Assembly: GCA_024230295.1 (NCBI GenBank)
Contig: JAAERN010000009.1
Coordinates: 62,001-126,000 of the forward strand
Origin: Planctomycetota bacterium
GTDB lineage: Bacteria; Planctomycetota; Phycisphaerae; Phycisphaerales; SM1A02
DNA length: 64,000 bases
Direction: 5' to 3'
Both the position numbers and the translations under genes were made by a program. Positions 31,208-49,007 of the stretch are shown here, piece by piece. Numbering within the stretch: the stretch's first letter is position 1; each line of letters begins with the position of its first letter. Under the pieces are notes generated by a model, which did not search any database, was not told the origin of the DNA, and saw nothing but the letters and a program-made list of their open reading frames with translations.

Positions 31208-32453
31208 GAATTTCATCGATCGTCGCGTTGAGCCTCTTCTTCGTTGCATCCTTGCCCATGAAACCGATATCGACCGAACGGACGACGCCCTGTGGATCGA
31301 TGACGACTGTGTGGGGGATTCCACCAACGCCGTACTTCGATGCGACCTTGCCTTTGGCGTCAAGCAGCACGGAAAGAGTCCACTTCCTCTTCGTGAGGAA
31401 AGCACTGACTTTCTTCTTGGCCTCATCGAGATCAACTGCCCAGAGCACGACGCCATCGTTCTTTCGAGCGTCCGCGACTTCCATCAGAACCGGCAGGCCC
31501 TGACGGCAGGGGCCGCACCACGTTGCCCAGAAATCGAGAATGACCGTTTTGCCCTTGAGGCTCGCCAGCGAGACATCGGTGCCGACAAGATTAGGAAGCG
31601 TAAAGTCTGGCGCGGCCTTGCCGACCATGGCGTGGTCCGCTTCAAGGTCGCCGGGTCCGTCCATGCCAGTACCGTCAGGCATGCCTTCCATCATGGCTGC
31701 CATGAGATCTTCGACCTGTTTCCAGTCTTCGGGCGCAGTCCAAGAGAACATCTTCTTGGCCTCTGGGGTTGACTCCAGTTTCTTCCAGTCGTTGAAGTCA
31801 AAGACCATCTCGCTGGGCATGCCGGGCATCAACTGCTCGGACGGAAGCGTGATGGAAAGCCGTTTGACCCACGGGGCCGTAGCTGGACCGATCGTGAACG
31901 TGACGGGAATGGATCCCATCATGTCATCATCACCTGCGGTGAATCGAAGCAGCTCGTTGTCACCATCCTTGCCGACGTACTCGACTGACTGGAACTCCTC
32001 CATGATCGATGCGCGGGCATCAGCCCCAAACAGATCGAGTACAAAACTCGCCGGACCAACCATTTGCATGAGCATGAGGTCTTCGACATCGAGATTCTTG
32101 GGCGCATCGCCCTTGGACCAAAGTTTCATGTCCGGCAGGCCCTGCACAAGTGTTGTGCCATTGCTTGCCAGAATCGGTGTTGCCATCCCCATCATGCTTG
32201 GCGGACCAGAGGAGTCGTCTCGAATGACAAAGAGATTGGGTTTGAGCACCGCGACAACGGCCTTGGATTTCACCGGCGGCACACCTGGCATTTCTATATT
32301 TTGGACAACAACGGTCGATGCTCCGGGAATCTGCTGATACCAGGCCAACATCCCATCGAGTACCTCGGCTGCTTTGGGCGTCATATCGGCGAGGGCGAGG
32401 GTGGATGTGGTCAGTGTTGCGACGGTAATGGCAATGGTGGCGAAAGCGCGCAT
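31191..32453 (-). CDS. Exported DUF2092/LolA-like domain fused to TlpA-type thioredoxin domain
   Basis: Signal peptide MRAFATIAITVATLTTSTLALA; C-terminal APDFTLPNLVGTDVSLASLKGKTVILDFWATWCGPCRQGLPVL...GIPHTVVIDPQG. Confidence 0.85.
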   Translation of the reverse strand: MRAFATIAITVATLTTSTLALADMTPKAAEVLDGMLAWYQQIPGASTVVVQNIEMPGVPPVKSKAVVAVLKPNLFVIRDDSSGPPSMMGMATPILASNGTTLVQGLPDMKLWSKGDAPKNLDVEDLMLMQMVGPASFVLDLFGADARASIMEEFQSVEYVGKDGDNELLRFTAGDDDMMGSIPVTFTIGPATAPWVKRLSITLPSEQLMPGMPSEMVFDFNDWKKLESTPEAKKMFSWTAPEDWKQVEDLMAAMMEGMPDGTGMDGPGDLEADHAMVGKAAPDFTLPNLVGTDVSLASLKGKTVILDFWATWCGPCRQGLPVLMEVADARKNDGVVLWAVDLDEAKKKVSAFLTKRKWTLSVLLDAKGKVASKYGVGGIPHTVVIDPQGVVRSVDIGFMGKDATKKRLNATIDEILKTAG

Positions 32454-32503
32454 TGGAGTCTCCTTGGTGTCGAAGGAGGATAGCCACCGCCGTACACTGT
32501 GGT

Positions 32504-32589
32504 GGGCCCGTGGCGGAATTGGCAGACGCAGCGGCCTTAAAAGCCGCAGTCCCGTACGGGACGTGTGGGTTCGAGTCCCACCGGGCCCA
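32504..32589 (+). tRNA. tRNA-Leu (anticodon TAA)
   Basis: Acceptor GGGCCCG/CGGGCCC, anticodon arm GCGGCCTTAAAAGCCGC, long variable arm GTCCCGTACGGGAC, T-arm GTGGGTTCGAGTCCCAC, discriminator A. Confidence 0.95.
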
Positions 32590-32590
32590 C

Positions 32591-32615
32591 ATCGGCCCGC
32601 CCTTGGCGGGCCGAT
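32591..32615 (+). terminator. Hairpin immediately 3' of tRNA-Leu
   Basis: Perfect 11-bp inverted repeat ATCGGCCCGCC-CTT-GGCGGGCCGAT starting 2 nt after the tRNA; no T tract. Confidence 0.6.
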
Positions 32616-32627
32616 GAGATTAGGCGA

Positions 32628-33062
32628 TCATGAGAGCAGGGGGACTCGGCTGAGCAGGATGAAGTCTTTACCCTCGCGTCCGAATTCGAGCGTGCTTGCC
32701 AGCATGGCGATAATCGGCGCGAGTCTTGGGCCGTTCGGGGACTCGAACGTCTTGCGCCGCTGGGTGCTCCAAGTACGGATGGTTTGCTGATCAGCCGCCG
32801 AGGCGGATCTGTCAATATCGATTATCTGCGAGTGGAACTGCCACACGAACGGGCGTGCTTGCTCAAAGATCGTCTCAACGACGGCGGAGATGCAGCGCTT
32901 GCCAATTGATATCGTCGGTTTGGACCGGACGAGTACGGCTCGGCTTCGACTCAGGCGGAACCGTAGTCCAGTGCTCAGTGCTGCTGTCTGCCGATTGAAG
33001 GCGGCGGCGTAGATTTCAGGAACGGTCGTGAGAGGGGTGGGCATGATGTCGGTCATGGACAT
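32628..33062 (-). CDS. Hypothetical protein (weakly supported)
   Basis: 144 aa ORF filling an otherwise empty interval; no recognised motif. Confidence 0.35.
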   Translation of the reverse strand: MSMTDIMPTPLTTVPEIYAAAFNRQTAALSTGLRFRLSRSRAVLVRSKPTISIGKRCISAVVETIFEQARPFVWQFHSQIIDIDRSASAADQQTIRTWSTQRRKTFESPNGPRLAPIIAMLASTLEFGREGKDFILLSRVPLLS

Positions 33063-33227: not shown

Positions 33228-34496
33228 ATGCTCGAAGGCAACTCACTCAACCAGCCAGCTCCGCCCCGAGGATTCAAGGCGCTGCTCGTCACCATGACCT
33301 GCGGCGCGGTTAACGACAATCTCCTTCGCGGAGCTCTGCTTCTGAGTGTCGCGGAGGGAGGGATGTGGGGAGGCAAACTCGGCGAGGGGGGGACCGGGTG
33401 GATCACAGTGATGCTCTACCTGCCATTTGTGCTGCTGCTGGGCGTGACAGGGCAGATGGCCGATCGATACAGCAAGCGGACCATTATTGTGTGGACTCGT
33501 ATCGCCGAAGTGCTGCTCGCCACAGGCGTCGCAATCGCATTCTGGTTTGGTAGTTTCTATGTGACGACTGCACTGTTCGTATTGCTTGCGGCCCAGAGCG
33601 CGTTCTTCAGCCCAGCCAAATATGGATCCGTACCAGAACTCGTTCCCGACGCCCGGCTCGGCTGGGCAAACGGCTTGCTCAGCCTATTGACCAACGCGGC
33701 GATCATTCTTGGTGTGGCGGCTGCTGGAATCATGCTGGGCGCTGGCCCGGTGTTTCTTGGATTCTCCATGATCGGCGTGGCGATCATCGGCTTGATCAGC
33801 AGTATCCAGATTGCATCACAGCCTGCCGCCGATCCAACTCTCTCGCTTTCAATGCGGACCTTTACTGCGCATCTCCGAGTGATCCATCGGATGCGGGGGA
33901 CGCCGCTACTTAGCACGACTCTTGCGTGGTGCTGGTTCTATGCAGTGGGGTCCCTTGTCATCACGATTATCCCCTTACTGAGAGAGCCCATGGAGTTGTC
34001 CGACGCCGCGGCGGGCGCACTTTTGGCGGCCCCCGGACTCGGAATCGGAATCGGAGGTCTTGTTGCTGGCGTCTTGTCGAGAACGGGCATCCTCGCGAGT
34101 TTGATTCCAATCGGGGCGATCGGTATGACGGTGACTTTTGTGTTGCTTGCGATTATGCCGGAGTCTTGGATGACATCCATCATCCTTCTGGGAATCGTCG
34201 GATTCTTCGCGGGCTTCTACGTTGTTCCAATTCTGGCACTTCTTCAACACATGCCTGTGCCGAGCTTCCGAGCGCGGACTGTTGGAACCGCAAACTTCAT
34301 GACCTACATAGCGATGATGGCTTCTGCGCTTGGATTCGCTGTGCTGGCTCCCGTCATCGGTGACGATCCCCACCTGTGGTTCTCGATCTGTGCCGGTGGC
34401 ATGCTGCTGGTATTCATTGGCGCAATGTTGCAGCGAACCACGATGCGGGCCGCCGCGGCGCCAGAGTTGTTTGCGACAATCGGGGGCGAGGTATGA
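33228..34496 (+). CDS. MFS transporter
   Basis: 12-TM-like hydrophobic pattern, FVLLLGVTGQMADRYSKRTIIVWTRIAEV (loop 2-3 motif), FFSPAKYGSVPELVP (LplT-like). ORF opens at 33156. Confidence 0.85.
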   Translation: MLEGNSLNQPAPPRGFKALLVTMTCGAVNDNLLRGALLLSVAEGGMWGGKLGEGGTGWITVMLYLPFVLLLGVTGQMADRYSKRTIIVWTRIAEVLLATGVAIAFWFGSFYVTTALFVLLAAQSAFFSPAKYGSVPELVPDARLGWANGLLSLLTNAAIILGVAAAGIMLGAGPVFLGFSMIGVAIIGLISSIQIASQPAADPTLSLSMRTFTAHLRVIHRMRGTPLLSTTLAWCWFYAVGSLVITIIPLLREPMELSDAAAGALLAAPGLGIGIGGLVAGVLSRTGILASLIPIGAIGMTVTFVLLAIMPESWMTSIILLGIVGFFAGFYVVPILALLQHMPVPSFRARTVGTANFMTYIAMMASALGFAVLAPVIGDDPHLWFSICAGGMLLVFIGAMLQRTTMRAAAAPELFATIGGEV

Positions 34497-35179
34497 CGAG
34501 AGAATGCCCAGACATCATGCTCTTTGATCTTGATGGGACACTCATCGATTCGGTGCCCGACATCGCAGCCGCAGTCAATGCCATGCGGTCGGAGTTTGGC
34601 ATGGCTGCCGCTTCAGTTGATCAGGTGCGAAGTTGGGTCGGTCGAGGTCTATCGATGCTCATGCATCGCGCGCTCACGGATGATGCTGAGGGAATCGCTG
34701 AGGTTGGCCAGCACGAGGAATCGATTCGGATCTTTCGGAGTCACTACCAGAACTGCTGCACGCACCAGACGGTTGTGTTCGATGGAGGGCGCCCGCTCTT
34801 GGAGTGGCTGGCGGCATCCGATATCAAGGTTGCCATTGTTACGAATAAGCCGGTTCACTTTGCGAAGCAGATCGCCGAATCACTGGAGATTGGCTGCCAC
34901 TGCGATCTGATCATCGGCGCCGAGTCGCATCGTCCACTCAAGCCCGACCCCGCGTCAATCATCGAAGCGGTGGAACAACTCGGCGGCGGGTGCGCATGGA
35001 TGGTTGGAGACACGGTGTTCGATCGCGATGCCGCTCGGGCCGCAGGAGTCCCGTTTGTCGGCGTTCAGCTCGAGGGTGATCAGGGACGCAACATCTCTGA
35101 GATTACTTCCAAGGACGAACCGGTGTTCGACTCACTCACATCACTTCACCGATGGATCGAGTCCGGGTTTGAATCATGA
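34493..35179 (+). CDS. HAD-superfamily hydrolase, phosphoglycolate-phosphatase-like
   Basis: LFDLDGTLIDSVPDIAAAVN, VAIVTNKP, KPDPASIIEAVEQLG, WMVGDTVFDRDAARAAGVPFVGV. ATGA overlap with the MFS gene. Confidence 0.9.
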   Translation: MTRECPDIMLFDLDGTLIDSVPDIAAAVNAMRSEFGMAAASVDQVRSWVGRGLSMLMHRALTDDAEGIAEVGQHEESIRIFRSHYQNCCTHQTVVFDGGRPLLEWLAASDIKVAIVTNKPVHFAKQIAESLEIGCHCDLIIGAESHRPLKPDPASIIEAVEQLGGGCAWMVGDTVFDRDAARAAGVPFVGVQLEGDQGRNISEITSKDEPVFDSLTSLHRWIESGFES

Positions 35180-35358
35180 GCGACAAAATTCACAAGCGGT
35201 TTGATCGTGTTGCCTCAGCGCAGGCTGCGCACTGGTTTGACATGAGTGGCTTCGCTGCCGAGGCGGTGATGATCGCGGGCTTGTATCTTGCTCAAGCGGA
35301 TGGCCAGTGGCGAATCAATCAAACGGGCTACGGTCCCGTGTCAGGAGTGACATTATGA
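35176..35358 (+). CDS. Small hypothetical protein (60 aa)
   Basis: ATGA overlaps at both ends with flanking genes; no recognised domain. Confidence 0.5.
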   Translation: MSDKIHKRFDRVASAQAAHWFDMSGFAAEAVMIAGLYLAQADGQWRINQTGYGPVSGVTL

Positions 35359-35513
35359 ATCGTTTCGGAATTATTGGCGGAGCGGCGCTGATCGTAGAGG
35401 GATTTGGAGCCTTGGCGCTTGCGCAGGATCATCCCCTAGGTGACACACCGCAGAAGAAGATGATGAAAACTATGCAGACGTGGGGCGAGCACTTGGACCA
35501 TCTAGGACGATGA
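35355..35513 (+). CDS. Small hypothetical protein (52 aa), possibly exported
   Basis: Start ATG preceded by AGGAG; ATGA overlaps at both ends; N-terminal hydrophobic MNRFGIIGGAALIVEGFGALALAQ. Confidence 0.5.
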   Translation: MNRFGIIGGAALIVEGFGALALAQDHPLGDTPQKKMMKTMQTWGEHLDHLGR

Positions 35514-36187
35514 CGCTTGAACTGACATGGCTCGGACATAGCGCCTTCTTGCTCTCGGACGGCACATGCACCGTCGCGGTTGATCCGTTTCTGACGGGCA
35601 ACCCCACCGCCCCGTGCGTTGCTGCTGACATCAAGTGCAGTCACATTGCGCTCACGCACGGACATGAAGATCATGTTGGCGACACGATCGAGATTGCCAA
35701 AGCCAACGGCGCTCCGGTCATCGCGGCATTTGAGATCACCAACTGGGTCCAGTCCCAGGGCCACGATCTGGTTGAGCCGGGGAACCCCGGCGGACGCATT
35801 GACCTCGGCGGGGATTGCTGGGTGGCGTTCACGCAGGCCCTTCACTCGTCTTCATATGGCGGGCAGTACATGGGCATGCCCTGTGGACTGATGCTGCATG
35901 TCGGTGGCAAGACGGTCTATCACTGCGGCGACACCGGGCTCTTCGGCGACATGGCCTTGCTTGGTGAGATCTACAAGCCAGACGTTGCGATCATTCCGAT
36001 CGGTGATCGGTTCACGATGGGTCCGGAACTCGCCTCCCGCGCGGCGGACCTCATCGGCGCGCCGATCGCAGTGCCGTGCCATTACGACACGTGGCCGCCC
36101 ATTGAAGTCGATGTCTCACGATTCACACCCCAGTTCGCGGCCGTGCAAGTGATGGATCCGGGAGTGGCGTGGAGTGTCACAACCTGA
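35510..36187 (+). CDS. UPF0173-type metal-dependent hydrolase (metallo-beta-lactamase fold)
   Basis: LTWLGHSAFLLSDGTCTVAVDPFLTGNP, LTHGHEDHVGDTIEIAK, VYHCGDTGLFGDMALLGEIYKPDVAIIPIGDRFTMGPELA. Confidence 0.93.
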   Translation: MTLELTWLGHSAFLLSDGTCTVAVDPFLTGNPTAPCVAADIKCSHIALTHGHEDHVGDTIEIAKANGAPVIAAFEITNWVQSQGHDLVEPGNPGGRIDLGGDCWVAFTQALHSSSYGGQYMGMPCGLMLHVGGKTVYHCGDTGLFGDMALLGEIYKPDVAIIPIGDRFTMGPELASRAADLIGAPIAVPCHYDTWPPIEVDVSRFTPQFAAVQVMDPGVAWSVTT

Positions 36188-36293: not shown

Positions 36294-37166
36294 TCAGCGA
36301 ATGATCGCTGTCACGATGACCGATGCTGCCAGCGCGGCGGTCGTTGCGGCGATCCAGAAGACCTGCTGACCTGCGGAGGGCTTCGGCATAACGTGCCCAT
36401 GATGTTCGGTCGGACTGTCCATGTTCGGCATCGCCCCGTGCTGGTGAGCCGCATGATCCATGTGCTTATGATCGTGTTCGGCTGGCGAATCTGCTTTCGC
36501 AGGAATAGTCATGCACCCGTGCTTGAATCCGCGCGACACCAGCCAGTGGTTGATGGGGTAGGCGGTGAGTCCACCAGCGACCGTGGCGATGCCCATCCTG
36601 AACCAGAAGGACCAGTGCCATGGCACCATGCTCTCGGGCCACGCCACGGCGAGCGGCACCATGACGGGGATCATGCCAACCATGCACATATTCATCGACA
36701 CGGTCTCAGCAAAGATGGTTCGCTTTACGGCTTCGCCATAACTGGCGAACATGCTCCGCATCATCATGGCTTGGAAAATGAACAGGCCTGTGATGTACGC
36801 CCCGATGTACTCGATGCCGATCTCGTAGCCCCAGGGAAAAGTGAAGGTCGAGAGCACGGCAGCGGTGATGATGATGCCCGTTGCGTCGCCAGCAATACAG
36901 TGCATCTCACTATTGACAGACTGTTTCCATAGAACCTTGGTGAACACATCATGCAACCCTTCGCCGGGGTTGCGACATGCCAGCAGGTAAACAAACAGCC
37001 CGACAGGGCCGGTGTAGACGATTACGAGTCCCCACGCGAGTTTTTGGACCCACGACACGGGCGTGTTGTTGAAATCGAGCAACACAAAGAGCAAGGAGCC
37101 GCCCGTTAGGGTGAACCAGACAATCATGGCGCCAGCCAGCATGGTGTTCCCTTTTTCTGTATCCAA
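36294..37166 (-). CDS. DUF4396-like integral membrane protein with His/Met-rich segment
   Basis: Multiple TM helices, HCIAGDATGIIITAAVLSTF, NHWLVSRGFKHGCMT; His-rich EHDHKHMDHAAHQHGAMPNMDSPTEHHGH. Confidence 0.75.
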   Translation of the reverse strand: MDTEKGNTMLAGAMIVWFTLTGGSLLFVLLDFNNTPVSWVQKLAWGLVIVYTGPVGLFVYLLACRNPGEGLHDVFTKVLWKQSVNSEMHCIAGDATGIIITAAVLSTFTFPWGYEIGIEYIGAYITGLFIFQAMMMRSMFASYGEAVKRTIFAETVSMNMCMVGMIPVMVPLAVAWPESMVPWHWSFWFRMGIATVAGGLTAYPINHWLVSRGFKHGCMTIPAKADSPAEHDHKHMDHAAHQHGAMPNMDSPTEHHGHVMPKPSAGQQVFWIAATTAALAASVIVTAIIR

Positions 37167-37183: not shown

Positions 37184-37711
37184 ATGAATATCACACACGA
37201 TACGGTCGCGGGGGACTGGGGTCTTGTTTGCCGCGCAGCGGCGATTGCGGCGGCAGCCCACGAGGGACAGGAGCGGAAAAACGGGACGCCCTATATACAG
37301 CATCCAGCGAGGGTTGCGGCGCTGCTTGCGTGGGCAGGCGGGGATGATTCGCTCATTGCAGCAGGATTTCTGCATGACGTGATCGAAGATGGGCCGACCG
37401 ACTACGACGACATTCTCGAAGCGTGCGGCGAAGATGTCGCCGACTGGGTGGTGCTGATGACCAAGGACATGCGCCTCCGCGAGGACATTCGTGAGCCCGC
37501 CTACATCAAGCAACTCACAGACGGAGCGTGGCAAGGCCGTGCAGTCAAACTCGCCGATCAGATCGACAACTGGCAAGACGGCTTGACTGACACCGCGACG
37601 CTTGAGAAGCGCCGCGACAAGGCCGAGTGGGCGATTCAGATTGCTGAGCAGGACGGTGAGTTGGTGATCGCTGCGCTTCGCGATCGGCTTGAGGCGCTTA
37701 TTGCGATGTAA
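37184..37711 (+). CDS. HD-domain phosphohydrolase (SpoT/MESH1-like)
   Basis: NGTPYIQHPARVAALL, AAGFLHDVIEDGPTDYDDI, AVKLADQIDNWQDG. Confidence 0.8.
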   Translation: MNITHDTVAGDWGLVCRAAAIAAAAHEGQERKNGTPYIQHPARVAALLAWAGGDDSLIAAGFLHDVIEDGPTDYDDILEACGEDVADWVVLMTKDMRLREDIREPAYIKQLTDGAWQGRAVKLADQIDNWQDGLTDTATLEKRRDKAEWAIQIAEQDGELVIAALRDRLEALIAM

Positions 37712-42795: not shown

Positions 42796-43926
42796 ATGCT
42801 CCGGCACGTCTTTACTGCCATCCGTGTATTGCTTGTGCTTGCAGCCGTCGCGATCGTTGTGCTGGTGGTCAACTGGCGGACGATACTGGTCATTCCGGCG
42901 GGCGAGCCGGGGCTTGATGGTTCTACCAGAGAAATACCAACTACCTATGTACTGACTTCGGTCGAGGATGCTGCCCCCGGCGCCGTGTGGGTGAAGACCG
43001 AGTCTGGACTCGCTGGTGAAGTCGGGGTCAATCTCGTGAAACCCGGCATGCTCGATGTCTTTGCCGGAGCAAATGGTTGGTGGCTGCTGATCGGACTTGG
43101 TTTGGTTGGATGCATCTATCCGCTTCAGGCGACACGGTGGTGGATTCTGATGCGGTGCCGCGGCCTTTCAGCAGCGTGGCCTCGAACGCTCCGCCTTGTG
43201 CTGGTTGGTGCCTTCTGCAACTTCTTTCTGCCTGGGACCGAGGGCGGCGACATCGTCAAAGCGTGGGCCGCTGCCAAGAGATCGGACAGACGCGTTGAAG
43301 CGGTGATGAGTGTTGTGTTTGACCGCATCACAGGTCTCGTCGGTCTCATCATCCTCGCGGCAGTCGTTGGCATCTTCTTGGCGGAATCCGAACAAGCGCA
43401 GCAGATCGGCGCATGGGCTGGCTGGGGCATGGTTGCGATTGGCGCGATTGCCGTCATCGCCTTCTTCATAGCGACCCGTGGATGGCTTCGACTCCCGGAA
43501 ATATCGCGGACGTTCGGCGGCGGTCTGCCCGCGCGAATGATCACGGCCGCCCGGGCCTACGCGCAACATCCTGGGGCGGTACTCAGTGCAACGATCGTCT
43601 CGGTTGGCGTACAAGTACTACTGGCTTCCGCAGCGGGCTGCGCCGCGTGGTCGCTCGGTGTGACCCACGATCTCACGGTCGTGCTTGCGGTGATGCCGAT
43701 CCTCTTCCTCGCCGCTGCGGTGCCATTTACTTGGCAAGGTGTTGGCGTCATGGAGATGCTCGGGATTGCCCTTCTTGCTGTACCCGGTGTTGCAAGCGTC
43801 AACCAAATTATTGGGCTCCTCTTGTTGTATCGGGGGTTTGAGCTTGCGTGGGGAGGAGTGGGAGCATTGCTGATGTTGGGGACAGGAATTAGGCTCCATC
43901 CAGAGTGGAATCACACTGCGCCCTGA
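42796..43926 (+). CDS. YbhN/LPG-synthase-TM-like integral membrane protein (flippase-like family)
   Basis: Multiple TM segments, FCNFFLPGTEGGDIVKAWAAAK, AVMSVVFDRITGLVGLIIL, AVPFTWQGVGVMEMLGIAL. ORF opens at 42676. Confidence 0.8.
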   Translation: MLRHVFTAIRVLLVLAAVAIVVLVVNWRTILVIPAGEPGLDGSTREIPTTYVLTSVEDAAPGAVWVKTESGLAGEVGVNLVKPGMLDVFAGANGWWLLIGLGLVGCIYPLQATRWWILMRCRGLSAAWPRTLRLVLVGAFCNFFLPGTEGGDIVKAWAAAKRSDRRVEAVMSVVFDRITGLVGLIILAAVVGIFLAESEQAQQIGAWAGWGMVAIGAIAVIAFFIATRGWLRLPEISRTFGGGLPARMITAARAYAQHPGAVLSATIVSVGVQVLLASAAGCAAWSLGVTHDLTVVLAVMPILFLAAAVPFTWQGVGVMEMLGIALLAVPGVASVNQIIGLLLLYRGFELAWGGVGALLMLGTGIRLHPEWNHTAP

Positions 43927-43955
43927 TATCATGGCGCGGACAGGATCCTCCATTA

Positions 43956-45131
43956 ATGCGCACAGAATTTCTTCCATTTGCCAAACCCTCAATCAGCGAG
44001 GAGGACGTGGCAGCCGTATTGGAGACCCTCCGAAGCGGCTGGATCACGACAGGGGCAAAGTGCGCAGCCTTTGAAGAAGCACTCTGCGATCGCCTCGGAT
44101 GCAAGACCGCCGTAGCGGTCACAAGTGGGACTGCTGCCATGCAGTTGGCCCTTCATGCGATTGATATTGGCCCAGGCGATGAGGTCATCACACCTTCGAT
44201 GACATGGGTCTCGACACCAAACCTCATCACGATGCGTGGGGCAACCCCAGTTTTTGTCGACGTCGATCGTGACACACTCATGGCCTCACCCGACGCAGTC
44301 GCTTCGGCTGTTACCGACCGCACACGTGCCATTATTCCGGTCGATTATGCAGGAGCCGCGCTGGATTTGCAGCCGATGCGCACACTTTCCTCAGAACGTG
44401 GGATTCCACTCATCGAAGATGCGGCCCATGCGATCGGTACGGTGCGTGCTGCGGGAGAAGTAGTTGGCTCGCAAGGAACGGCCATCTTCAGTTTGCATCC
44501 AATCAAGACGATCACCAGTGGCGAGGGCGGTGTGTTGGTGAGCGACGATGAAGAACTTGGTAATCGAATTCGACGGCTTCGATTCCACGGGCTCGGCGTT
44601 GATGCGTGGCAGCGTGGTCAGCAGGGACGTGCTCCGCAGGCTGAAGTCATCGAGCCAGGTTACAAGTGCAATCTTCCAGACATGAACGCAGTACTTGGGC
44701 TGAAACAACTCAAGCGTCTCGATGCATTTATCGAACGCCGAACTGAACTCGCCATGCGGTATCGTGAACAACTTGCCGATATTCCAGGTGTGACGCCGCT
44801 CAGCGACTCCGCCGAGACCCAGCGTCACAGTTGGCACCTGTTTATCGTTCGCGTGGATCCCGACACATCAGGCATTGACCGTGATGGGTTCATGGAAGGC
44901 CTCAAGGCGAGAAACATCGGAACAGGTATTCACTTCCGCGCTGCCCATTCCCACGCGTGGTATCGCAACAATGGCGATATGTGGCGAGCGGATGACTTAT
45001 CCAACACCGAATGGAACAACGATCGAATCTGTTCGATACCTCTCTTCCCCGATATGACCGACGCCGATCAGTGTGATGTGATGGACGCGATTCGTGCCGT
45101 GGTACCCGCCGTAGAAGGTGTGCAGACATGA
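43956..45131 (+). CDS. arnB: UDP-4-amino-4-deoxy-L-arabinose aminotransferase (DegT/DnrJ family)
   Basis: [80 protein letters not shown] (PLP Lys). First gene in arn order. Confidence 0.93.
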
Positions 45132-46132
45132 ACATGTCCGTTTCTATTGTGATTCCGGTCTATAACGAAGCCGAAAACATCGACGCTCTTGTGCGGCGGG
45201 TGAGCGAAGCGTGCAACGAGTTGAATGGACCTTGGGAAGTGATATTGGTCGATGACGGAAGCCGAGATGGCTCCATCGAGAAACTTGAGGCCGCGGCCGA
45301 GCGGTGGGACGGAAAGATCCAAGCGATCATTCTCAACCGAAATTATGGCCAGCACGCAGCGATTATGTGCGGCTTCGGGCACGCGAGCGGCGACATGATC
45401 ATCACGCTCGATGCGGATCTGCAGAATCCACCCGAAGAGATTCCCCGGCTGGCAGAGATGATTGAGCAAGGCAACGATGTCGTGGGGACCATTCGGCGGA
45501 ATCGACAGGACACGTTATTCAGGCGATTCGCTTCGGGCCGCATCAACTGGATGGTCAAAAAGGCAACCGGCGTCGGCATGAGCGATTACGGCTGCATGCT
45601 TCGGGCTTATCGAAAACCCGTCGTTGAAGCGATGCTGCAGTGCCGCGAGCGGAGCACATTTATACCGGTGCTTGCCAACAGTTTCGCGAAGCGAGCGATT
45701 GAGATCGAAGTCGCACACGCCGAACGGGCGGCAGGAGAATCGAAGTACAGCGTCTGGAAACTCGTCAATCTCCAGTTTGACCTGCTTACCAGCATGACGA
45801 CTACACCGCTTCGAATGCTGTCCTGGTTTGGTGTTGCAATTGCTGCGGGGGGGGTCGGATTCGGCCTCCTCTTGCTCATCGGTCGGGTGCTCTTTGGTGC
45901 GGAGTGGGCGGCCGAGGGCGTCTTCACGCTCTTTGCGATCCTGTTTATCTTCATCGGTGCGCAGTTTGTCGCCATGGGCCTTCTTGGCGAATATTTAGGA
46001 CGCGTGTATCACGACGTTCGCGGGCGGCCTCGATATTTTATAGATCACATCGCCGGGCATTCGAGCCTCGGCGGAAGCGATGCTGGCGAAACGGCCGCAT
46101 CAGCCGCCCTTGAAAGGCAGATTCAGACATGA
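45128..46132 (+). CDS. arnC: Undecaprenyl-phosphate 4-deoxy-4-formamido-L-arabinose transferase
   Basis: [55 protein letters not shown], two C-terminal TM helices. Confidence 0.92.
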
Positions 46133-48138
46133 AGATCGTACTCTTTGCGTACCACGAAATCGGCGTCGCAGCACTTGAAGCAATGCTTCGGAGTGGTATT
46201 GAGATCGCCGCTGTGTTCACGCACACAGATGACCCAGCAGAAGGGGGCTGGTACCGGTCAGTCGCTCGGGTGGCCGCCCAAGAGGGTATTCCTGTGTTCG
46301 CCCCGGAGAATCCCAACCATCCAATTTGGGTGGATCGGATTCAACAGTGGGACCCCGACGCGATCTTCTCGGCGCATTATCGCAGCATGATTGGTTCGAA
46401 AATCCTCGATCTGTGCCCGGATGCATGCTTCAACATTCACGCTTCACTTCTTCCAAAGTACCGGGGGCGGTGTCCCATCAACTGGGTCATCATCAATGGT
46501 GAATCTGAGACTGGTGTCACGCTGCATCACATGACGTCCGTTGCGGATGCGGGTGACATCGTGGCGCAGCAGAAGATCACGATCGACGAAGATGAAACCG
46601 CGGCCACATTGACTTCGCGTCTCGTGAAGGCTACCGGTGCCATGCTGGACGACGCGATTCCCGCGATGCAGCGGGGGGATTCAACGAGAACGCTACAGGA
46701 TGCATCGAGGGCTACGACCTATCCCGGCAGATGCCCGGAAGATGGCCGCATCGACTGGTCTGATTCCGCGACGGCCATCCAGAGTCTTGTTCGCGGCGTG
46801 ACGTATCCTTGGCCAGGAGCATTCTCCTTTGCTGGCGATCGTAAGATCTTGGTGTGGCAGGCAACGGTGATGCCTGGCGCGCCGGGGACAAGTCCAGGCA
46901 CGGTTCTATCAACCACACCCCTGACTGTGTCGTGTGGCGAAGACGCCCTGCAGATTGATGCCGGGCAGGACGAGGATGGCGTTTGGTCGAGCGGATCACA
47001 CTTGGCCAAGGAACTGAACCTCGTTGATGGAATGCGACTGGGCAAGTCTGATCCTGTGGCGGCACCGCGGAAGCGATCGGTGCTCATCCTTGGAGTCAAC
47101 GGGTTCATTGGAAGCCACCTCTCAGAGCAACTCCTCGCAAATGACTATGAAGTGTTCGGGATGGATCTTCGCTCGACAAATGTGGCGCATCTTGTCGACC
47201 GGCCGGGATTTCATTACCTCGAAGGCGATATCGCCATCAACCGTGAGTGGGTCGAGTACCACGTCCGTAAGTGTGACGTAGTTCTCCCCCTCGTTGCGAT
47301 TGCCACGCCGATTGAATACGTTCGCAATCCACTTCGGGTCTTCGAATTGGACTTTGAGCAGAATCTTCAGGTTGTTCGTGACTGTGTGAAATATGGTCGA
47401 CGAATCATCTTCCCGTCTACAAGCGAGGTGTACGGGATGTGTACCGATATGGCCTTCGATGAAGATGAATCGAATCTGGTGCTGGGGCCGATCAGTAAAC
47501 AGCGTTGGATCTACTCGTGTTCCAAACAGTTGCTCGATCGTGTGATATGGGCGTACGGCGTGAAGGAGGGCCTAGACTTCACGCTCTTCCGACCATTCAA
47601 CTGGATCGGTCCACGTCTCGACACACTCGATGCAGCGAGAGTCGGCTCGTCGCGGGCGATCACCCAACTCATTCTGAATCTCGTTGAAGGAACGCCCATC
47701 CAACTTGTGGATGGCGGTGAGCAAAAGCGATGTTTCACAGATGTCAACGAAGGCGTCGATTGCCTGTTCAGAATGATTGACGACACGACGGGTCGGAGTA
47801 CCTCACAGATCATTAATGTGGGCAACCCTGATAATGAAGCGAGCATCAAGGAACTTGCGGAGATGATCGTTGCCCGCTTCGACAAGCATCCACTAAGGCA
47901 TCGGTTCCCGCCGTTTGCGGGATACCGTATCGTTGAGAGTGGGAAGTACTACGGCAAGGGATATCAGGATGTGCAGCACCGCCGTCCATCGATTCGCAAT
48001 GCCACCCGTACTTTGGATTGGGTTCCGACCATCTCTACCGAGGAGTCCGTCGCGAGAACCGTTGACTGGTTCATCGAGGATCATGTGCGGGCGCTTGGTG
48101 CGGCACAAATCACATCGGAGGCTCCGACAGGCGCATGA
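46129..48138 (+). CDS. arnA: Bifunctional UDP-Ara4N formyltransferase / UDP-glucuronate oxidative decarboxylase
   Basis: Formyltransferase [39 protein letters not shown]-binding [27 protein letters not shown] catalytic Tyr/Lys. Confidence 0.95.
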
Positions 48139-49007
48139 GACTCGCCCTGCGTATCGATGTCGATACGTACCGGGGAACCCGCGACGGCTTGCCCGTCCTG
48201 CGAAAGATGCTGCACGCGCGTGGGATCCAAGCTTCCTTCTTTTTGAGTTGCGGTCCAGACAATATGGGCCGACACATTCGCCGGCTGATTCGTCCGGCGT
48301 TTCTATCGAAGATGCTCCGGTCCGGTGCTCCGAGCATGTATGGATGGGACATCGTGTTGCGGGGGACGATATGGCCGGGACCAGTGATTCACCGCCACTT
48401 AGCGTCCCAGATGAAGTCCGTTGCCGACGACGGGCATGAAATCGGCGTGCACGCATGGGACCACTACTGGTGGCAAACGTCTGCCCATTCGGCATCTCCT
48501 GAACGGATGTCAGAGGAAATGGCACGTGCGCATGAGGCGATAGCAGACGTGATCGGGCGCGAACCAACGTGCGCCGCGGCGCCGGGGTGGATATGCACCC
48601 CCGACATGCTTCATCTGCGAGATCAATTCAATTATGAATACGTGAGTGACTGCCGAGGGCAAGGAGTCTTTCAGCCAGTAGGTGGACCGCCGCAAGTAAG
48701 TGTCAACCTCCCAACATGGGACGAAGTGGTTGGTCGGGACGGTGTTACTGATTCCAACTTCAATGAATATTTGATGGGGTGTTTGCGGCGGGATGGGTTT
48801 GACGTGTTGACGATCCATGCCGAGTCTGAGGGCGGTGTCAAGGCCCGTCTATTTGAAGACTTCCTCGATCGAGCACTGGCAGACGGTCTCAATATCGTGC
48901 CGCTGAGCACACTTGTGGAATCAAATGTACCCACGGGTCAGTTGGGCCGCGGAGTTGTGCCGGGCCGTGAAGGATGGGTTGCTGTACGGGAGGACACGCC
49001 CGAATGA
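48135..49007 (+). CDS. arnD: 4-deoxy-4-formamido-L-arabinose-phosphoundecaprenol deformylase (polysaccharide deacetylase family)
   Basis: [62 protein letters not shown]; position in arn order. Confidence 0.93.

Follow-up and report, generated by a model that had tools for sequence, protein, structure and literature searches.

Organization of the operon

The window, by which we mean the whole 64-kb stretch of DNA analysed, comes from a 2.7-Mb MAG (G000) that is 97.6% complete in 180 contigs. It contains five consecutive open reading frames (ORFs) on the forward strand, with the start of each overlapping the end of the one before.

33228..34496, + strand: MFS transporter gene, 422 aa (Pfam MFS_1, 8e-23; NCBIfam LplT-like)
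34493..35179, + strand: HAD phosphatase gene, 228 aa, phosphoglycolate-phosphatase-like (Pfam HAD_2, 1e-28; NCBIfam)
35176..35358, + strand: 60-codon ORF, read here as what remains of a class I SAM methyltransferase gene of ~248 aa (methyltransferase profile, E 3.4e-7)
35355..35513, + strand: 52-codon ORF, probable remnant of a secreted DUF1579 gene comprising signal peptide and N-terminal linker (operon slot and N-terminus comparison)
35510..36187, + strand: UPF0173-type metallo-hydrolase gene (MBL), 225 aa (Pfam Lactamase_B_2/B_3, 3e-20; NCBIfam PRK00685, 1.5e-79)

On reading the sequence, exact ATGA overlaps are found at 34493-34496 (HAD with MFS), 35176-35179, 35355-35358 and 35510-35513 (the 52-codon ORF with MBL). 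The preliminary description had proposed just such a five-gene chain, and all of its coordinates are exact, with products of 422, 228, 60, 52 and 225 aa. Its identification of the MFS, HAD and UPF0173 proteins is borne out by Pfam and NCBIfam. Neither the 60-aa nor the 52-aa ORF has a match in Pfam or NCBIfam.

The MFS gene lies at the start of the operon, and is conserved in relatives from both the genus and the family. Its product is similar to LplT and to the MFS portion of acyl-ACP-phospholipid O-acyltransferase fusions (NF006386, 4e-64), and is without an acyltransferase domain. Upstream of the operon there is a tRNA-Leu gene (anticodon TAA; 32504-32590, + strand), through which spurious ORFs run, for example 32374-32790, and 32020-32592 on the minus strand. 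At the other end MBL is 67-87% identical within the genus, and after it comes the gene for a stand-alone HD protein of 175 aa (37184-37711, + strand), which resembles the hydrolase part of RelA/SpoT (TIGR00691, 1.8e-23) and is a conserved member of the operon in relatives. On the opposite strand, between MBL and the HD gene, lies a gene for a DUF4396 membrane protein (36294-37154, - strand), which is found there in G198 and G136 as well. In G004, G005, G006 and G008 the MBL and HD genes are directly adjacent, with no DUF4396 gene between them.

The same operon slot in related genomes

We compared the region with six genomes of the same genus that keep the operon (G002, G004, G005, G006, G007 and G008, all Phycisphaerales MAGs). 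Five of the six, all but G008, have HAD, a methyltransferase gene of 248-249 codons, and MBL. The methyltransferase is missing in G008, where the gap from HAD to MBL is ~60 nt. In G136, which belongs to another, related genus, the order is HAD, methyltransferase, DUF1579 gene, MBL.

The intact methyltransferase, taking the G006 gene, matches PF08241 (2.3e-12), contains the SAM motif WEPGCGSGQ, and matches PDB 4hg2 across its whole length (6e-47). With a full Rossmann-like domain and a glycine-rich SAM motif, the parent gene in the relatives qualifies as a class I SAM methyltransferase. When the window's own genome was searched for an intact methyltransferase, a relative of it or a leftover fragment, none was found.

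The 60-codon ORF

The 60-codon ORF divides into three parts.

35176..35214, + strand: block 1, codons 1-13, equivalent to methyltransferase residues 1-13 (MSDKIHKRFDRVA); offset 0, 54-77% identity to same-genus methyltransferases
35215..35277, + strand: block 2, codons 14-34, equivalent to methyltransferase residues about 103-123 (SAQAAHWFDMSGFAAEA...); offset 89 residues
35278..35358, + strand: read-through tail, codons 35-60 and stop; no methyltransferase similarity, covering the leader and Shine-Dalgarno sequence of the next ORF

A profile of eight intact methyltransferases finds the 60-aa ORF clear of every non-homologous ORF in a set of ~5200 sequences, and its score against the same-genus methyltransferases was reached by none of 1000 shuffles. 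Residues 10-34 align with the middle of the methyltransferase at the offset of 89. The 267 nt missing between blocks 1 and 2 is a multiple of three, is identical in size when measured against five intact genes, and contains the SAM motif. The two sides of the deletion junction are alike, as in G042 (GATCGCGTTGCC and GATCTGATTGCA), which fits a deletion between short similar sequences. On the strength of these alignments, the 60-codon ORF can securely be read as a methyltransferase gene with an in-frame internal deletion of 267 nt that removed the SAM-binding motif. The gene of the relatives is like other class I SAM methyltransferases of the Methyltransf_11 type (4hg2; PF08241), whereas the copy in the window lacks the SAM motif and most of the fold. 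With both the SAM-binding motif and the complete domain missing, it fails to qualify for the class; it descends from the methyltransferase family and cannot be a working member of it.

The middle block is 65-82% conserved, compared with 41-76% among the intact genes. That the methyltransferase-derived residues are as conserved as they are among intact genes fits either a recent deletion or a block that is still constrained.

The last 26 residues have no similarity to any of the methyltransferases (shuffle p 0.3-0.9). The Shine-Dalgarno sequence of the 52-codon ORF, AGGAG at 35343-35347, lies inside this tail. As the stretch encoding the tail includes the ribosome binding sequence of the next ORF, the stop codon that overlaps the next ATG would be the chance end of a run-on frame. 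Similarity between this leader and that of G002 is marginal (18/40, p 0.04). A MAFFT alignment hinted that the tail might be the methyltransferase C-terminus; we rejected this since protein and DNA alignments were no better than shuffles, save for one isolated weak value. Weak matches that looked like small homologues of the 60-aa ORF, found in other families (frames of 73 codons in G090 and 83 codons in G063), have biased composition and no methyltransferase context, and are taken as chance.

The 52-codon ORF

In G136 the slot upstream of MBL is occupied by the gene of a 200-aa secreted DUF1579 protein (1e-19), which ends 8 nt before MBL. In G043, of the same genus as G136, there is a 51-codon stub with a signal peptide upstream of MBL (L096), linked by ATGA. 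The mature part of this stub matches the G136 protein (0 of 2000 shuffles), and the motif TPEQIK-MQ is common to both. G002 has a 32-codon stub (L087), again with a signal peptide and ATGA-linked to MBL, whose AQDHP start is shared with the ORF in the window. The G002 and G043 stubs are likely to be parallel remnants of DUF1579 genes.

The N-terminus of the 52-aa product is indeed hydrophobic, as the preliminary description had stated. The ORF aligns with the N-terminus of the DUF1579 protein of G031 (LAQDNPYGDMSPEQQAMMKAW), with p 0.0005 for the mature part, where LAQDHPLGD...KKMMKTMQTW in the window is paired with LAQDNPYGD...QAMMKAW. G031 is one of three weak matches to the 52-aa ORF found across the family, and it alone lies in a secreted-protein frame that matches; the other two were taken as chance. 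A profile of 22 DUF1579 N-termini finds the ORF with E about 0.05 against a background of 5194 decoys, and ranks it below one unrelated secreted ORF. Since the profile match reaches only this value, a DUF1579 origin is argued mainly from position, together with a suggestive sequence match.

The 52-aa ORF is without the DUF1579 domain (~155 positions in Pfam), and PF07617 finds nothing in the window's genome. DUF1579 proteins are present in 111 of the 181 genomes of the family; among nine genomes of the window's genus only G008 has one, at another locus. In common with the secreted DUF1579 (PF07617) proteins, the ORF has a signal peptide followed by a linker of the AQD...PEQ-MM-AW type, and its slot is that of the G136 gene; it differs in that the ~150-residue domain is missing. 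We conclude that the 52-codon ORF is probably a stub of a DUF1579 gene, reduced to the part that encodes the signal peptide and N-terminus of its secreted product.

ATGA overlaps and alternative explanations

The preliminary description had considered the overlaps unlikely by chance, and took them to argue for translation of both small ORFs. We compared the window with 100 simulations of 64 kb of first-order Markov sequence having its composition. ORFs of at least 35 codons that both start and end in ATGA number 44 on average in the simulations, compared with 53 observed. Tandem pairs of such ATGA-to-ATGA ORFs arise by chance with a mean of 2.9 per 64 kb and a maximum of 10 in the 100 simulations. 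With about three tandem pairs per 64 kb in simulated sequence, improbability by chance fails as evidence of function. Tandem pairs are also present in non-coding frames of the window (minus strand, 11541-11753-11929 in reverse-strand coordinates). ATGA linkage is common in this genome, as seen in a second run of ATGA-joined large genes at 43905-49007 (+ strand; overlaps at 45128, 46129, 48135 and 49004). ATGA links alone are weak evidence for functional small genes.

Very probably, both small ORFs are the remnants of two former operon genes, which have decayed with their stubs kept. That they are instead genuine, selected small-protein genes co-translated with their neighbors seems to us highly improbable. 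In favor of such genes are the exact ATGA at both ends, a canonical AGGAG before the 52-aa start, a hydrophobic N-terminus, and short ATGA-linked ORFs of similar N-terminus in G002 and G043. However, the 60-aa ORF as such has no homologue. Its conserved residues come from two separate blocks of the larger methyltransferase, and the 26 residues at its end, which are without any match, lie over the leader of the next gene. G004, G005, G006, G007 and G008 keep the flanks but have no 52-aa ORF, and ATGA pairs of such a size often arise by chance. A conserved small protein should have homologues of the same length between the same flanks. The 60-aa ORF has none: relatives in which both flanks are retained lack it and, G008 apart, have a full methyltransferase in its place. 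For the 52-aa ORF there are only counterparts of variable length in two genomes, G002 and G043, and the full DUF1579 gene in G136. Conservation in flank-keeping relatives was the check proposed in the preliminary description, and its outcome goes against the 60-aa ORF and largely against the 52-aa ORF. What were called uncharacterised small proteins should be described as gene remnants, with a methyltransferase gene as the parent of one and, probably, a DUF1579 gene like that in the G136 slot as the parent of the other. Both stubs may be translated. Judged by comparison between genomes, they are not conserved small proteins and do not constitute a new protein family.

It is also conceivable that the 60-aa ORF is dead while the 52-aa ORF still encodes a short peptide that is exported, the DUF1579 protein having been reduced to a functional secreted N-terminus. 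The start, Shine-Dalgarno sequence and signal peptide are all retained in G000, G002 and G043, each ATGA-linked to MBL. Yet the part following the signal peptide differs in both sequence and length (28, about 11 and 29 residues), nothing is conserved beyond AQD, and the ORF has been lost from most of the genus, so that we regard an exported peptide as quite unlikely. Finally, since we are dealing with a MAG in 180 contigs, a real and whole methyltransferase gene might have been collapsed in the metagenomic consensus. We give this very little credence, because the contig is 296 kb in length, neither stub has gone out of frame, nowhere in the genome is a methyltransferase fragment left behind, and G008 lost the methyltransferase independently.

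A proposed history of the operon

If both ORFs are gene remnants, the ancestral order would have been MFS - HAD - methyltransferase - (DUF1579 secreted protein) - MBL - HD. The in-frame deletion of 267 nt between two similar short stretches (GATCnnnnTTGC-like) would have taken out that half of the methyltransferase which binds SAM. Loss of the 3' part of the gene and of the spacer would have followed or accompanied this, with the result that the frame continues into the next gene's leader, as far as the TGA overlapping the next ATG. The DUF1579 gene would have been shortened until the signal peptide and N-terminal linker were all that was left, and joined just upstream of MBL, whereby the stop codon of the stub overlaps the MBL start.

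The stubs may still be translated, and their main remaining effect could be the delivery of ribosomes to MBL by termination-reinitiation. This would tolerate stubs that are ATGA-linked and disfavor those that are not. The MBL start has no well-spaced Shine-Dalgarno sequence of its own, since AGGA ends two bases before the ATG, and so MBL may depend on ribosomes finishing the 52-codon stub, in the manner described for ATGA overlaps of other prokaryotes (PMC6728339). A short ATGA-linked frame before MBL is also present in G002 and G043 and, by reading, in G008 (12 codons, MNLHTIAMGMTT). These frames fit selection for coupling, although there are too few of them to demonstrate it, because MBL starts in ATGA in most genomes and one in three frames qualifies. 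In G000, G002 and G043 the start, Shine-Dalgarno sequence and signal-peptide stub are kept, ending exactly at the MBL start. A broader and more speculative reading, which we consider unlikely on present evidence, is that ATGA-coupled operon genes erode by frame-keeping deletions with the stubs kept as leader ORFs, because the flow of ribosomes to the next gene must be kept.

Relation to known systems

The idea that some short orphan ORFs are pieces of decayed genes is already established as a proposal ('The Journey to smORFland', PMC2447293; Rickettsia pseudogene tracks, PMC2374718). Here too an unmatched short ORF is a fragment of a longer gene that is intact in relatives. What sets the present case apart is that the deletion in the fragment is precise and in-frame, that the fragment lies among living operon genes with ATGA on both sides, and that the host is an uncultured planctomycete that is not known to be an intracellular bacterium. 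The operon stubs are a further case of the known short ORFs from decayed genes, in which the deletion is unusually clear. ATGA overlaps can couple the translation of neighboring genes by termination-reinitiation, and Planctomycetes were among the groups surveyed (PMC6728339). In contrast to those systems, two of the upstream 'genes' here would be remnants, and the coupling is putative.

The locus carries a warning for small-protein discovery, in that gene remnants can have an open frame, be linked by ATGA and begin with a signal-like N-terminus. Where searches with a small ORF by itself yield weak matches, the matter is settled once the operon slot is compared among the genomes of a genus. The operon also offers a case in which one could test whether the decay of operon genes is shaped by translational coupling. 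If frame-keeping erosion does occur, it would be a general route from decayed genes to small translated ORFs.
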